DNA of 26,059 nucleotides from a virus, in IMG/VR virus record IMGVR_UViG_3300021963_000577, positions 1 to 26,059 of that record; one strand, 5' to 3'. The notes under the pieces are model-generated. The model searched no databases, had not been told where the DNA came from, and worked only from the letters and a program-made list of their open reading frames with translations. A program made the position numbers and the translations under genes. Positions 3,151 to 19,901 of the stretch are shown one piece after another. Every line of letters begins with the position of its first letter. Positions within the stretch are counted from its first letter, which is position 1.

Positions 3151-5201
3151 TAGTATGATGTTTCTATTACTTTAAGAAATGATAGTTTAGTAGTGTTATA
3201 TTCCATAGGGTTAAAGTTCTCAACTTTATTAAGCCTAAATAATACCCCGTCTATAAATACATACTTACTAAAATCTAAGTTAAAAATGTCTATTATATCC
3301 AATAAGCCAAAGCACGTTAATAGTTTACTATCCTTGCTTGTTATCTCTGCAATATAAGGACTATGATAAGCGTTAAATATGTTTGTGCTTGGATATGTGT
3401 TAGGGCTAAATTGTATCTCTTTTGGTGCGCCAAAGTTAATATCGTTTGTAGGGTTAATTGGGTCATCTAAATGTCCGGCATAACCATAACTTGTATAGCT
3501 TCCTAAAACAGTTGTAGTGTTCATTATGTTCCAACTACTAACTTCTGTTATTTTTTTAACCTGCATAATTCTTATTATGCTATCCATTCTATCCTCTGCG
3601 TTATTAGTGTTTGACTTCTTATAGATTGCCGGAAATACTTTGTCTTGTCCTGTTGCTTGATATAAAGTAGATGCTGCAAATATAACTTCTAATGTGTCTG
3701 TTTCTTTTACAAAGTCAAACTCAGTATCGTAAATAAAATCTCCATAGCCTTCTGTGTACTTCTTGCGGTAGTTCTCGCCATAGAAATCATTATCAGCCTT
3801 AAACTTGTAGTTATAGTAACGAGCATTAATCTCACTCATTGGCTTAATACTAAAAGGCTTGGCTCTATCTATTTTGTTAGTCCAATCTTCTGCATTAGCC
3901 GATACCTCAGGATAGAAATCCACATACGGACTAATAACCAACTCCTTGTCGTTAAACTTATTCTCATAAACGTAAAGGTTAAACATCTTAACAATGCTCA
4001 AAAAGAAATCTCTTTGAAATATGCCTCTTGGTATTGTTTCGTTTATCTTAATATTTTCTCCTAAATTAATTTGCACTAATGTAGGCTTTGCGGTTGTGAT
4101 AGTTAAGTTACCTGTAAATATTTCAACCTCCATTAATGTACCTAGTATTTCAACTTGTATGTAATCTGTATTAACAAAAGTTATATTATCTACTGTAAAA
4201 TCACAATCAATAATTCTTCTAACACTTGCATCGAAATCTTGACTACCTATTGGAACTCCATTTTTCCTTAATATAACAGAAAAATTTGAGTTAGCAGGAT
4301 TGAATGAATTTACAAAACCGGTTAAAGTTACTCTTATACTTGTGCTGATACTAGAACCTGTATAAGTAAATACTTCTCCAAAGGCATCTGGTGTAAAGCT
4401 ACCTGCCGTTGTTATAGTATATCTGACATAAGGTTCGCTTGTTAAATTCATTGTCCTGTTATTAGCAGTAGCACTAAAACTTGTATTATTTGAAGCCGTT
4501 ATGTTTGTCTGGTTATGCGGTATAATCAAGCGGTTAAATAAAGCCGTATTAAAGAACGAGCAGTCGAATGTGTAATCTGTTCCGGCAAATATCTTTTGTA
4601 TATACTCCTTAACATATAAAGCCGGTCTAAAAGTTGTATATTGAAAGTCCTTTTTAGCTACCCCGTATGCTCCTGTACTAACGTTTCCGTAATCAATCAA
4701 AGGATAGTAATAACCAGAGCCACCGGCATTATCCCAACTAGAACTAATATTAGCCACGCTATAAGTATGGTTGTATGCGCTAAAATCTAAATCTTCTAAA
4801 CGCTTATTTCCTAACTGATTAATAAAGCCACCAAGTTCTCCTACTACGCTGCATTGGTATTCGATTGTTTCTTTGTCTATAACTATCTCTAATATTCTTA
4901 AAGTGCCTTTGAATATTTGCACTTTATCAATAAAGATTTTGCAGTTAGCTTGTTTAGTTACGTTGAAGTTATAGCCTACGTTTGGCAGCGTGTTGTCTGT
5001 GAAGTTAGCATTGTTTAGCTCAAAAATATAACCAAAGACAAGGTTATTGTTTGCCGTTCCTGGTATGCTAATTGTTTTGCTGTAAGAAGTATTGCGGCTA
5101 CCAAACTCACTTACATCGTCAATGGCATAAGTGAACTCGGTAGATATATCCTGCAATAAATCTATCTTCTGTTCTTCTATGTATATCTCTGTGCTAATCA
5201 T
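3150..5201 (-). CDS. Large tail/baseplate protein
   Basis: A 683-aa protein rich in beta-forming residues, Asn, Thr and Tyr, with no signal peptide or membrane helix. The N-terminus has the pattern FTYAIDDVSEFGSRNTSYSK followed by TISIPGT, which is recurrent in long tail-tip or baseplate proteins of Bacteroidota phages. The segment from about 390 onward (FFLSIVKMFNLYVYENKF) resembles the hub-like half of such proteins. The end couples to the tape-measure start by TAATG, and its own start overlaps the previous stop the same way. A distal-tail or hub role is inferred from context and composition only. Confidence 0.5.
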   Translation of the reverse strand: MISTEIYIEEQKIDLLQDISTEFTYAIDDVSEFGSRNTSYSKTISIPGTANNNLVFGYIFELNNANFTDNTLPNVGYNFNVTKQANCKIFIDKVQIFKGTLRILEIVIDKETIEYQCSVVGELGGFINQLGNKRLEDLDFSAYNHTYSVANISSSWDNAGGSGYYYPLIDYGNVSTGAYGVAKKDFQYTTFRPALYVKEYIQKIFAGTDYTFDCSFFNTALFNRLIIPHNQTNITASNNTSFSATANNRTMNLTSEPYVRYTITTAGSFTPDAFGEVFTYTGSSISTSIRVTLTGFVNSFNPANSNFSVILRKNGVPIGSQDFDASVRRIIDCDFTVDNITFVNTDYIQVEILGTLMEVEIFTGNLTITTAKPTLVQINLGENIKINETIPRGIFQRDFFLSIVKMFNLYVYENKFNDKELVISPYVDFYPEVSANAEDWTNKIDRAKPFSIKPMSEINARYYNYKFKADNDFYGENYRKKYTEGYGDFIYDTEFDFVKETDTLEVIFAASTLYQATGQDKVFPAIYKKSNTNNAEDRMDSIIRIMQVKKITEVSSWNIMNTTTVLGSYTSYGYAGHLDDPINPTNDINFGAPKEIQFSPNTYPSTNIFNAYHSPYIAEITSKDSKLLTCFGLLDIIDIFNLDFSKYVFIDGVLFRLNKVENFNPMEYNTTKLSFLKVIETSY

Positions 5202-6415: not shown

Positions 6416-7073
6416 TCTTACTCTCGTTAATTGTTTGCTTTATTTGTATTTGCACGTCGCCACCTATTGCGACTGCTAAATTTTGTATAAATTCTTTATT
6501 GAATACTTGTGCTACCGCTCTGTCAAAGTAATGGGTAGACGTAAGACCTTTTGTGTGTATGCTTCTCGCTATTACATAGGCTAATGACTTTTTAGTTTCA
6601 AGTGCCTTCCTTTCAGTTCCAAGCTTTGTGTATTTTTTAACCGATACCGACTTAAGCTTATTGTATCCAAGCCATTTTTCTATTGAGCTAACAGGTACGG
6701 CTTTTTTATTGCCTTTAAATGCGTAAGGAGTTTTGCTATCAGCCTTTATGTTTTTAGTACCCTTAACCCCTTTATTGACAAAGTCGTAGTATTTAGATGC
6801 CTCGCTTCCTGGTTCATAACCTAAACTTAAAACGTATCCCGTTCCGAATTTAGTAATTATAGGCAAAGCAGGTTCTGCCAATCTACCAGAACTTGTAATG
6901 TTATCTTGATCTAATATCTTAACAAGCGTATCGTTAAAGGCTTTACCATATAAAGCAAGGGTTTCCTCTACAATAGGAAGTTCGCCTTCTTTAACTTTTC
7001 CAAAGCCAGTTTCCCCTATGCTTTGTAAAAAGCCACTTCTTAATGCTTCTATTTGCGCCTTTGATATACTCAC
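6393..7073 (-). CDS. Putative tail-completion/terminator-like protein
   Basis: A 226-aa basic protein. The only reasonable start is GTG at 7073, because an in-frame TAG lies 24 nt upstream and no early ATG exists. The C-terminal third contains YVIARSIHTKGLTSTHYFDR, similar in style to the RSI-x(3)-G-I/L-x-x-THFF pattern of small Bacteroidota phage head-tail or tail-completion proteins of the HK97 gp10 type. The location between chaperone and tail proteins fits. It ends in an Asn-rich tail (NGNNNNK). Functional assignment is tentative. Confidence 0.35.
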   Translation of the reverse strand: MSISKAQIEALRSGFLQSIGETGFGKVKEGELPIVEETLALYGKAFNDTLVKILDQDNITSSGRLAEPALPIITKFGTGYVLSLGYEPGSEASKYYDFVNKGVKGTKNIKADSKTPYAFKGNKKAVPVSSIEKWLGYNKLKSVSVKKYTKLGTERKALETKKSLAYVIARSIHTKGLTSTHYFDRAVAQVFNKEFIQNLAVAIGGDVQIQIKQTINESKNGNNNNK

Positions 7074-7151
7074 GCAAATAAATATACCTAATGTCTAAAA
7101 ATAACTAACCCCACCAAAATTGGCAGGGCTTGTCTGGGGGTATGGGGGGTC
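7074..7151 (-). other. C-rich intergenic segment (possible hairpin)
   Basis: In mRNA sense this 78-nt gap contains CCCCCC, CCCCC and CCC tracts, unlike the AT-rich surroundings. ACCCC (7141-7137) can pair with GGGGT (7112-7108), and TTAGTTATTTTT follows, so a weak terminator is possible. The plus strand has matching G-tracts. No gene is visible here. Confidence 0.3.
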
Positions 7152-18030: not shown

Positions 18031-18702
18031 CTAAGAAAATGAAACTTTACCTAATTTTATTTGTTCCTCAAAAAATAAAGCTACTGCTACGGCTCTGGCT
18101 TGGTTCTTTAACCATTGTTCAGTCCATTCATCTCGGTACTGCTTTGCGCTGATTATATCCATTTTATTAGCTTTGTAGGTAATGATTTCCATTAGTTTCT
18201 TTTTAGCAACTGCACCATCTTCTTTGGTCCAGACCTTAATGCCACTATTATTTAACTTTGTAAATACTGATAAAGGATTAAACAATCTATCAAAAGTTCG
18301 GTTTTCTAGAACCTTATATTCTTGGTAACTGTAATCAATTATCTCTAAATCAGTCAAATGTGGGATTGCTTCTACTCGTTCTTGTGGCATCATTTTTCTT
18401 ACTTCGTTTGCTTTTTTCTTGTATCTATCCATAACCTGACTAAAATAAGCCGGACTAAAATTTTGATAATGATCTAAAAAGTCATTAGCTACCATTTGCT
18501 TAAACGCTACTTTAATCTCGTTTATTGTAAAGCCTCCGTATTCACTCCTTATCCAATCTTCTAAAACTGCTAACTTAACTTTGTCTGGTATTACGTTAAT
18601 GCCTACTAGCTGCATAATATAAATCAAGTTCTGATGCAGCATTGTTTGGTTAAGGTTTCTAATCCTCTCACCCGAAAAGGCGGTCATAATCTCCTGCTCC
18701 AT
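18031..18702 (-). CDS. Replication-associated protein of unknown type
   Basis: From ATG 18702 this is 223 aa (MEQEIMTAFSGERIRNLNQT). A longer frame from ATG 18792 would overlap the upstream gene by 125 nt, so a start at 18702 or 18687 is preferred. The protein is helical with AVLEDWIRSEYGGFTINEIK at about 50-70 and FSPAYFSQVMDRYKKKANEV at about 88-108, a layout seen in replication partner proteins of Bacteroidota phages. It follows the replisome-organiser-like gene. No ATPase motif is visible, so a loader or adaptor function is only a guess. Confidence 0.55.
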   Translation of the reverse strand: MEQEIMTAFSGERIRNLNQTMLHQNLIYIMQLVGINVIPDKVKLAVLEDWIRSEYGGFTINEIKVAFKQMVANDFLDHYQNFSPAYFSQVMDRYKKKANEVRKMMPQERVEAIPHLTDLEIIDYSYQEYKVLENRTFDRLFNPLSVFTKLNNSGIKVWTKEDGAVAKKKLMEIITYKANKMDIISAKQYRDEWTEQWLKNQARAVAVALFFEEQIKLGKVSFS

Positions 18703-19360
18703 AGGAAGTAGCGTTGATAAGATTGTAGCCGTCAAGGTTAAACTGTTCTCCTTTTGTAAGTTTTCGCTGATTATTTGAAGTTCCTTTTGCATATTGTTTT
18801 GTGTTAGTTATCCAATTATTTGCTGCTGCTGACCAACTTTTCATAGGGTTCTTACCTACTTTCCACCCGTTGCTAGTATAGTAATTTACAAACTTTTCGG
18901 CTTCAATCTTAGCTTGTTCTGCTCCTATCCGTATTGCCATATATTCGTAAACCTCTTCAAAAGTACACTTAGTTTTATTAATATTTATATCTTCATTTTC
19001 ATTTTCATTTTCATCTTCCATAAGGTTATGTTTAGCTAAACCTAGTGGTTTTGTATTATTTTTAGGTCTACCACCCTTAGAGCCATTGTTTCTGCGGCTT
19101 TCAGTAAATTGAATGCGTTTTTCAATCTCATCCATTAGCCTTTCATTGTAAAAATTTCCGTCTTTGTCTTTTGTAAACTTGCTCAAAACATCAACCGAAA
19201 CCGAACCTAAACATAACCTAATGGTTTTGTCTGTAAGTGTTCCTTTCTGGTGTTGTAAACATAAGAGAGTAATAAATTGTCCTCTCTCTTCCATTGTTAA
19301 GTCAGCTACTCCATTTAGAAAGTCGCTACTATAAAATAGGAATGCAGGGTCTTTTGCCAT
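18668..19360 (-). CDS. Replisome-organiser-like protein
   Basis: A 230-aa protein. The N-terminal DUF1376/Lin1244-like winged-helix region starts MAKDPAFLFYSSDFLNGVAD and continues LTMEERGQFITLLCLQHQKG. It is followed by NGSKGGRPKNNTKPLG, an acidic low-complexity linker (ENENENEDININ) and a C-terminal domain with FVNYYTSNGWKVGKNPMKSW. This layout matches phage replisome organisers that bind the origin and recruit a helicase. ATG 19360 follows directly after the T8 tract of a terminator-like hairpin, so expression probably depends on read-through. Codons of the linker are a 6-bp repeat. Confidence 0.75.
   Translation of the reverse strand: MAKDPAFLFYSSDFLNGVADLTMEERGQFITLLCLQHQKGTLTDKTIRLCLGSVSVDVLSKFTKDKDGNFYNERLMDEIEKRIQFTESRRNNGSKGGRPKNNTKPLGLAKHNLMEDENENENEDININKTKCTFEEVYEYMAIRIGAEQAKIEAEKFVNYYTSNGWKVGKNPMKSWSAAANNWITNTKQYAKGTSNNQRKLTKGEQFNLDGYNLINATSYGAGDYDRLFG
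18994..19014 (-). repeat. Hexanucleotide microsatellite in coding linker
   Basis: About 3.5 tandem copies of CATTTT (plus strand) encode the alternating Glu-Asn linker. A change in copy number would alter linker length by two residues per unit without a frameshift. Confidence 0.6.
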
Positions 19361-19399
19361 AAAAAAAATAAACCCCGATAGCTACGAACTACCAGGGTT
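19361..19399 (-). terminator. Rho-independent terminator / attenuator hairpin
   Basis: On the minus strand AACCCTGGTAG (19399-19389) pairs with CTATCGGGGTT (19381-19371) through 11 consecutive pairs, including two G-U, around a 7-nt loop TTCGTAG. A TTTATTTTTTTT tract follows and touches the ATG at 19360. There is no room for a promoter between it and the gene, so it likely attenuates rather than ends the operon. Confidence 0.75.
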
Positions 19400-19400
19400 A

Positions 19401-19413
19401 TTATCATTTAACC
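19401..19413 (-). repeat. Third copy of GGTTAAATGATAA
   Basis: The 13-mer that ends the tape-measure and protease genes occurs again here between two hairpins, without its TTAATATTTAA partner. Confidence 0.5.
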
Positions 19414-19418
19414 ACTAA

Positions 19419-19450
19419 ACACATAGGCGGTTCGTAGTACGTCTATGTGT
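19419..19450 (-). other. Upstream hairpin with loop complementary to the terminator loop
   Basis: ACACATAG (19450-19443) pairs with CTATGTGT (19426-19419). An A/C mismatch and two further C-G pairs continue the stem. The ten-base loop TACTACGAAC contains CTACGAA, the exact reverse complement of the TTCGTAG loop of the downstream terminator, so a kissing interaction of 7-8 pairs is possible. A weak TATATTCG (19470-19463) lies just upstream and is one base off the -7 consensus. Confidence 0.6.
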
Positions 19451-19472
19451 CTTTTATTTATGCGAATATACA

Positions 19473-19901
19473 CTAAATTTCTTTAAGTTCTAATTTTAAG
19501 CAAAGTTTTTTTAACTTAGTCTTAAACCAATCCTCAGTTTCTATTAGGTTATTCGCTTGTTTTATGTTATGGATAGCAGTTGTGTGGTCGCTTGTTCCTG
19601 TGTATTGGCTTATCTCTTTGAGGCTCAACTTAGTGTACCTTCTAAGTAAATAAGCAGCAGCCTTGCGACCAAACGTTGTTTTTAAGCTCCTATCCTTTAT
19701 CATAACATCGCACTCAAACTCTTCGTCTACCAATTTGACAATCGTTCTTGCACCAATGTCTAAACCCAGAGGCTCGTTATCTTCTATGCCTAGTAACCCT
19801 AACTGCTGCATCATTTCGTGTAGCTGTAAATGTGTGTTACGTTGTGCAAAATAAAGCTCCTTTAACTGTCTTATTGATATGTCTTTCTTTCTAGTTAGCA
19901 T
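19473..19901 (-). CDS. Stand-alone DnaA domain IV-like DNA-binding protein
   Basis: A 142-aa protein. Its C-terminal half is a DnaA domain IV-type helix-turn-helix: GRKAAAYLLRRYTKLSLKEI (78-97) then SQYTGTSDHTTAIHNIKQ (98-115), where DHTTAIHN mirrors the DNA-contacting DHTTV-H signature of DnaA. The N-terminal half is a short coiled coil (LKELYFAQRNTHLQLHEMMQ) and a small beta region. There is no AAA+ ATPase. It may recognise DnaA-box-like sites in the phage origin or modulate host DnaA. It is followed by the structured leader of the replisome gene. Confidence 0.8.
   Translation of the reverse strand: MLTRKKDISIRQLKELYFAQRNTHLQLHEMMQQLGLLGIEDNEPLGLDIGARTIVKLVDEEFECDVMIKDRSLKTTFGRKAAAYLLRRYTKLSLKEISQYTGTSDHTTAIHNIKQANNLIETEDWFKTKLKKLCLKLELKEI

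Follow-up and report, generated by a model that had tools for sequence, protein, structure and literature searches.

A Conserved Leader in Which a 5′ Hairpin Is Matched to the Loop of a Terminator before Phage Replication Genes: a Candidate Transcription Attenuator

The window, which is the whole stretch of 26,059 nucleotides analyzed here, corresponds to the IMG/VR virus record IMGVR_UViG_3300021963_000577 (26 kb), and its main genes are encoded by the minus strand. On that strand, 112 non-coding bases separate the gene of a DnaA-C-domain protein (19473-19901) from a primosomal-like gene (18668-19360). The two genes and the leader between them are composed as follows:

19473 to 19901, minus strand: upstream gene, a small protein with a DnaA C-terminal DNA-binding domain (PF08299, E 2.6e-11)
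19463 to 19470, minus strand: predicted promoter -7 box TATATTCG of the Bacteroidota TAnnTTTG type (consensus match)
19419 to 19450, minus strand: hairpin 1, with 8 bp, one mismatch, 2 bp and a 10-nt loop (fold and covariation)
19431 to 19437, minus strand: kissing sequence CTACGAA of loop 1 (7-bp kissing helix)
19400 to 19418, minus strand: single-stranded linker TTAGTGGTTAAATGATAAT, 19 nt, of which the part TTTAGTGGTTAAAT is invariant in the window family
19371 to 19399, minus strand: hairpin 2, the terminator stem-loop, with 11 bp and a 7-nt loop (fold and covariation)
19382 to 19388, minus strand: kissing sequence TTCGTAG of the terminator loop, the complement of loop 1
19361 to 19370, minus strand: terminator T-tract TATTTTTTTT, its last base directly before the ATG at 19360 (sequence)
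18668 to 19360, minus strand: downstream gene, a primosomal/replisome-organizer-like protein (weak DUF1376 match, PHROG primosomal protein)

A sequence-only reading of this DNA had described an 11-pair hairpin with a T tract ending one base before an ATG, and a second hairpin upstream of it whose loop CTACGAA exactly complements TTCGTAG. Both are present, the former at 19399-19361 of the minus strand and the latter separated from it by the 19-nt linker. Hairpin 1 (19450-19419) reads ACACATAG A CG-TACTACGAAC-CG C CTATGTGT, and the terminator (19399-19371) reads AACCCTGGTAG-TTCGTAG-CTATCGGGGTT, its 11 pairs including two G.U. The kissing sequences of loop 1 (19437-19431) and loop 2 (19388-19382) match each other as exact reverse complements, and C19430 and G19389 could form an eighth kissing pair; in the minimum free energy fold of the terminator alone, the loop is closed by two weak extra pairs that the kiss would displace. 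Hairpin 2 has the form of an intrinsic terminator, a G+C-containing stem passing directly into a T-tract, and termination is predicted there. The 20 nt 5′ of the ATG at 19360 (13 T, 2 A) are the T-richest and A-poorest among window genes with full context, and the leader folds more stably than 200 shuffled versions (z -3.2). No further copy of the motif turned up in the window or in 33 family loci, where weaker matches overlap the same site. The window holds one other strong terminator-like hairpin, at 7107-7130, in a 143-nt gap before a GTG start at 7073.

What the sequence-only reading had missed is the -7 box (19470-19463) just 5′ of hairpin 1. The -7 box of Flavobacterium psychrophilum spans -12 to -5 (PMC9723704), which places the predicted transcription start near 19458, 8 nt 5′ of hairpin 1. 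The window has a weak -33 element.

Is this arrangement maintained? Protein and pattern searches gathered more than 150 loci of the window's phage family (L001-L282); no close DNA-level relative was found among isolated phages. The leader lies at the same place in all 80 loci retrieved through the downstream protein, and relatives carry TATATTTG or TATATTCG immediately 3′ of the dnaA-like stop codon. In an alignment of 57 distinct leaders of the family, which come from related phages so that covariation counts are not independent events, hairpin 1 is paired in 99.5% of cells, with double compensatory changes at three pairs, and the terminator stem in 98.2%. The seven pairs of the kissing helix are formed in 99.7% of cells. 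Five of these pairs show double compensatory changes, and at no pair is change limited to one side; the complementarity of the loops in relatives, which had been set beforehand as a refuting test, is thus maintained. Six loop classes occur, with CTACGAA, CTGCGAA, GTACGAA, GAGCGAA, AGTCCAG or AGTCGAG as loop 1. Twelve pairs of leaders have differences confined to the kissing loops, and eight of these represent a single clean two-sided change. In each of the remaining four, L045 is one of the two leaders. This leader (3908-4000 of its locus), the sole mismatched one of the 57, carries a class A loop 1 and a class B loop 2 and is either an intermediate or a recombinant. Given the non-independence of the counts, our argument rests on the minimal pairs, on the many unrelated loop codes and on the controls described below. 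The linker part TTTAGTGGTTAAAT is invariant throughout the family, protein-found sets included, an invariance partly due to loci having been found with the linker itself. Retained as well is the T-rich tract before the ATG, despite different downstream genes.

Mapped onto the upstream-gene tree (116 rows), the six loop classes require 61 changes, where the minimum is 5 and the shuffled value 70. Among 67 rows that share one downstream gene, they require 30 changes on the upstream tree (36.6 when shuffled) and 24 on the downstream tree (36.5 when shuffled). These counts indicate that leaders have often been exchanged between phages, and the loops remain matched, with one mismatch in 57 leaders, despite this exchange and the identical linker between them. 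A tie between loop class and downstream gene was considered and set aside, the picture being mixed and linkage to the downstream tree only slightly above that to the upstream tree.

The gene behind the leader varies within the window family, between three replication-protein N-termini, HNH-like ORFs and a GIY-YIG-like ORF (the latter two kinds named by reading their sequences). Whichever gene follows, HNH and GIY-YIG ORFs included, its start codon usually lies directly 3′ of the T-tract, which leaves no room for another promoter. A gene starting within about 20 nt of the T-tract must have its transcripts pass the terminator, which bears out the earlier proposal that transcription of the downstream gene has to cross it. 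At five loci (L087, L088, L092, L106 and L121), HNH-like or GIY-YIG-like ORFs lie exactly between leader and replication gene, their start codons abutting the T-tract and their ends, in those read, overlapping or abutting the next start.

The same plan recurs, without sequence similarity, in other Flavobacteriia phages, reached through weak DnaA-like matches in isolates, and in IMG/VR contigs, before replication and homing-endonuclease genes. Examples among isolates are:

Polaribacter phages P12002L/S: kiss GTCGTAG x CTACGAC, before a replication protein
hattifnatt9-1: kiss GCTTCGAC, before a helicase
tooticki6-1: kiss GTCGTCG, before an endonuclease
Freya_1/Danklef_1: kiss GGTGGAA x TTCCACC

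Further isolates with scanner matches are Flavobacterium 11b, FCL-2, Cellulophaga phi19:1 and Croceibacter P2559S (6 bp), and 80 IMG/VR helicase loci yielded about ten additional unrelated versions, most of these loci being without a leader. The scanner found no element in crAss001, RAP44, FCOV-F6, phi10:1, ctsTn925 or phi46:1. Overall there are about 35 loop codes, with one to three elements per carrying genome; among the 34 listed codes, six have only 6 bp and two are doubtful (AAAGCC and TTGGCGT). Kissing partners lie about 50 nt apart (42-63 nt in 33 of the 34 elements), most elements have 2-11 nt between the end of the -7 box and hairpin 1, and only seven of the 34 show the TTG of a -33 element at 19-nt spacing. 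Linker sequences differ between families, and some classes have interrupted T-tracts. Most elements (28 of 34) have an internal loop between the outer terminator stem and the apical kissing hairpin, in the recurring forms UGAN/NGAN, GGA/AAA and (G)AGUA/GAAA (for example in L444, L464, L510, L516, L559 and L561), the last of which we take to be like a loop-E/sarcin-ricin motif; the window family has a plain 11-bp terminator stem with no such loop. The only hint beyond Flavobacteriia is a candidate in the record of Bacteroides phage B40-8 (L590, near 20810, minus strand), a possible 6-bp kiss GCAACG after TAGATTTG.

The genes behind these other elements encode helicases, Lin1244_N, DUF6291 and weak DUF1376 proteins, and also HNH_3 and GIY-YIG endonucleases and a metallo-beta-lactamase-like protein; in hattifnatt the operon behind the element ends in a primase. 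Many phages with the same helicase gene carry no such leader. The earlier suggestion that the structure controls replication is borne out in part, in its link to replication genes. The element is not confined to the replisome-organizer gene, given the HNH and GIY-YIG ORFs, helicases and other replication proteins behind it elsewhere.

Could the complementarity be due to chance? We reject this on the strength of shuffle, reverse and complement controls together with covariation. The plan scanner, whose sensitivity is incomplete (K=7 settings missed window-family classes D, E and F), gave 52 matches in 593 kb, 45 of which had a -7 box no more than 25 nt away; 358 kb of shuffled sequence gave two and reverse-not-complement pairing six, none with a box. 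A box-anchored scan returned 60 matches in 1.11 Mb of phage DNA, 53 with an ORF start behind, as compared with zero in shuffled, two in reverse and three in complement-only controls. Mixed genome loci (888 kb) contained two matches at K7. In 800 kb of a Flavobacteriaceae (Hanstruepera) chromosome there were two, one of them a tRNA gene and neither followed by an ORF, compared with 20 in 1.06 Mb of phage genomes, 16 of them with an ORF. The least biased search asked for box, 5′ hairpin, terminator and ORF without requiring complementarity: at least 6 nt of loop-loop complementarity was found in 26 of 29 places with a following ORF, while in shuffled sequence the plan turned up six times, each time with less than 6 nt of complementarity and without an ORF. 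This implies that the kiss belongs to the plan. Compensatory changes in relatives, and recurrence in unrelated leaders at near-zero background, are what argue against chance.

We consider the conserved hairpin and kissing-terminator structure, as read from sequence, to be near certain, and the leader is a real and apparently undescribed element with a putative control function. Its most probable role, to which we would assign a probability of roughly 0.6, is that of a promoter-proximal, cis-acting transcription attenuator. We envision that the RNA, predicted to start close to hairpin 1, folds this hairpin first, and that hairpin 1 would then catch the terminator loop as it emerges from RNA polymerase. 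The 5′ hairpin might in this way set the timing and efficiency of terminator stem closure, such that most transcripts would end as an RNA of about 90 nt and a limited share would read through to the replication gene. The kiss may help or delay termination, and a phage factor or signal may modify its action. Weighing against this reading are the weak -33 element, the interrupted T-tracts of some classes and the lack of a leader in many phages that carry the same helicase gene. Loop complementarity reaches at most 9 nt and is confined to the loops in every case, so that kiss and terminator stem can coexist; an alternative helix using part of the terminator stem, as in a classical antiterminator, was not found. 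Loop letters that are free to change as long as they stay matched are what would be expected of an architectural contact. Since the loop codes of elements within one genome differ and cross-pair over no more than 3 nt, no shared trans-acting RNA reads them, and no pairing partner following loop class was found elsewhere in 20 family genomes. More tentatively, and at somewhat less than even odds, the elements may represent a new class of regulatory RNA in Flavobacteriia phages, consisting of self-contained promoter-hairpin-kissing-terminator modules with free loop codes, several per genome, that would meter replication genes and perhaps act on RNA polymerase or serve as a phage-specific code.

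Alternatively, the terminated RNA of about 90 nt might itself be what the leader serves to make: a stable small RNA with a hairpin at either end, held closed by the kiss, in which the linker would do the work while the gene would be expressed by read-through. Possession of its own promoter and its own terminator would suit such an RNA, as would the invariance of the window-family linker while stems and loops vary. We nevertheless think it unlikely, because start codons of unrelated genes directly behind the T-tract would be unneeded for a free-standing RNA, because linkers differ between families, and because 20 family genomes showed no conspicuous target for the linker. Exact linker matches in bacterial genomes were dismissed, as the inspected flanks looked like chance matches.

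Less probable again is a put-like antiterminator, whereby the nascent two-hairpin RNA would bind RNA polymerase, in put at the beta' zinc-binding domain, and promote read-through of its own and later terminators. The leader resembles HK022 putL (PMC9378689) in its size, its two hairpins and its position just behind the promoter. The structured, purine-rich internal loops could be read in the same sense, GA on both strands (tandem GA) being found in 14 of 32 elements as compared with 11 of 429 further terminators in these phages. Against this, put has neither kissing loops nor a terminator as its second hairpin, terms that do not occur in PMC9378689.

We regard it as improbable that the loops form a trans-acting specificity code for copy control, incompatibility or superinfection immunity, in which the RNA of one genome would kiss the nascent leader of the same class from another. 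Six classes do co-circulate at similar frequencies in one phage family, scrambled on the flanking-gene tree (61 changes, minimum 5), but recombination accounts for the scrambling equally well, and intramolecular pairing should outcompete pairing in trans. Nor was an antisense promoter seen in the window family, with an antisense -7 box in 0 of 112 regions; it occurs in 11 of 34 regions of other elements. An integrase domain (PF00589, Phage_integrase) was likewise found in 0 of 28 window-family records (G001-G028), so the family may be virulent, the records being perhaps incomplete.

Finally, window positions 19408-19416, beside the DnaA-C-domain gene, resemble a DnaA box on our reading (TTAACCACT as compared with TTATCCACA, 7/9). 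That the leader acts as DNA, the linker being a site for the DnaA-like protein or the hairpins a single-stranded-DNA origin, is very improbable. In its favor, AGTGGTTAA agrees with a DnaA box complement at 7 of its 9 positions and the adjoining gene has PF08299. Against it, the window has no excess of TTAACCACT (9 sites, 9.7 expected), and the positions of promoter box and T-tract, as well as the other families, which lack this linker, point to RNA.

The leader gives a pointer to how Bacteroidota phages may meter their replication genes, in a phylum whose phage gene regulation is little known. The recurrent architecture is recognized by a rule rather than by sequence, and family-based searches therefore miss it. 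Dozens of natural compensatory variants are available for studying the effect of a loop-loop contact on intrinsic termination.

How does the leader relate to known systems? The literature searched contained no description of this plan, and Rfam 15 gave no match to the window at gathering threshold, the best sub-threshold hit being the trpB motif (26 bits, threshold 59). Attenuators of the trp/his type have a leader terminator before the gene together with a mutually exclusive antiterminator; the terminator is common to both, whereas the kissing leader has no alternative stem and its structures coexist. Loop-loop contacts of about 7 nt govern replication in antisense attenuation of pT181 and pIP501 and in ColE1 RNAI/RNAII, but here the partner hairpin resides in the same transcript, and the window family lacks the antisense -7 box. 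The guanidine-II (mini-ykkC) riboswitch also places two hairpins with kissing loops before a start codon; its loops are conserved ACGR, in contrast to the 7-9 Watson-Crick pairs of free sequence found here, and the window has no Rfam match. The packaging RNA of phi29 (pRNA) carries a pair of loops that complement each other and differ from phage to phage; they pair between molecules, whereas pairing in the kissing leader would be intramolecular and the leader includes a terminator. Type III toxin-antitoxin loci (ToxIN) differ in that no tandem repeats were found in the window leader, and replication or endonuclease genes follow rather than a toxin. HK022 put is a phage leader RNA of about 70 nt with two stem-loops, putL lying just behind the early promoter (PMC9378689). 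Put and the kissing leader have no sequence relation, no loop-loop kiss has been described for put, and its second hairpin does not form a terminator that abuts a gene; what the two share is a pair of stem-loops right behind a promoter, here a predicted promoter box.
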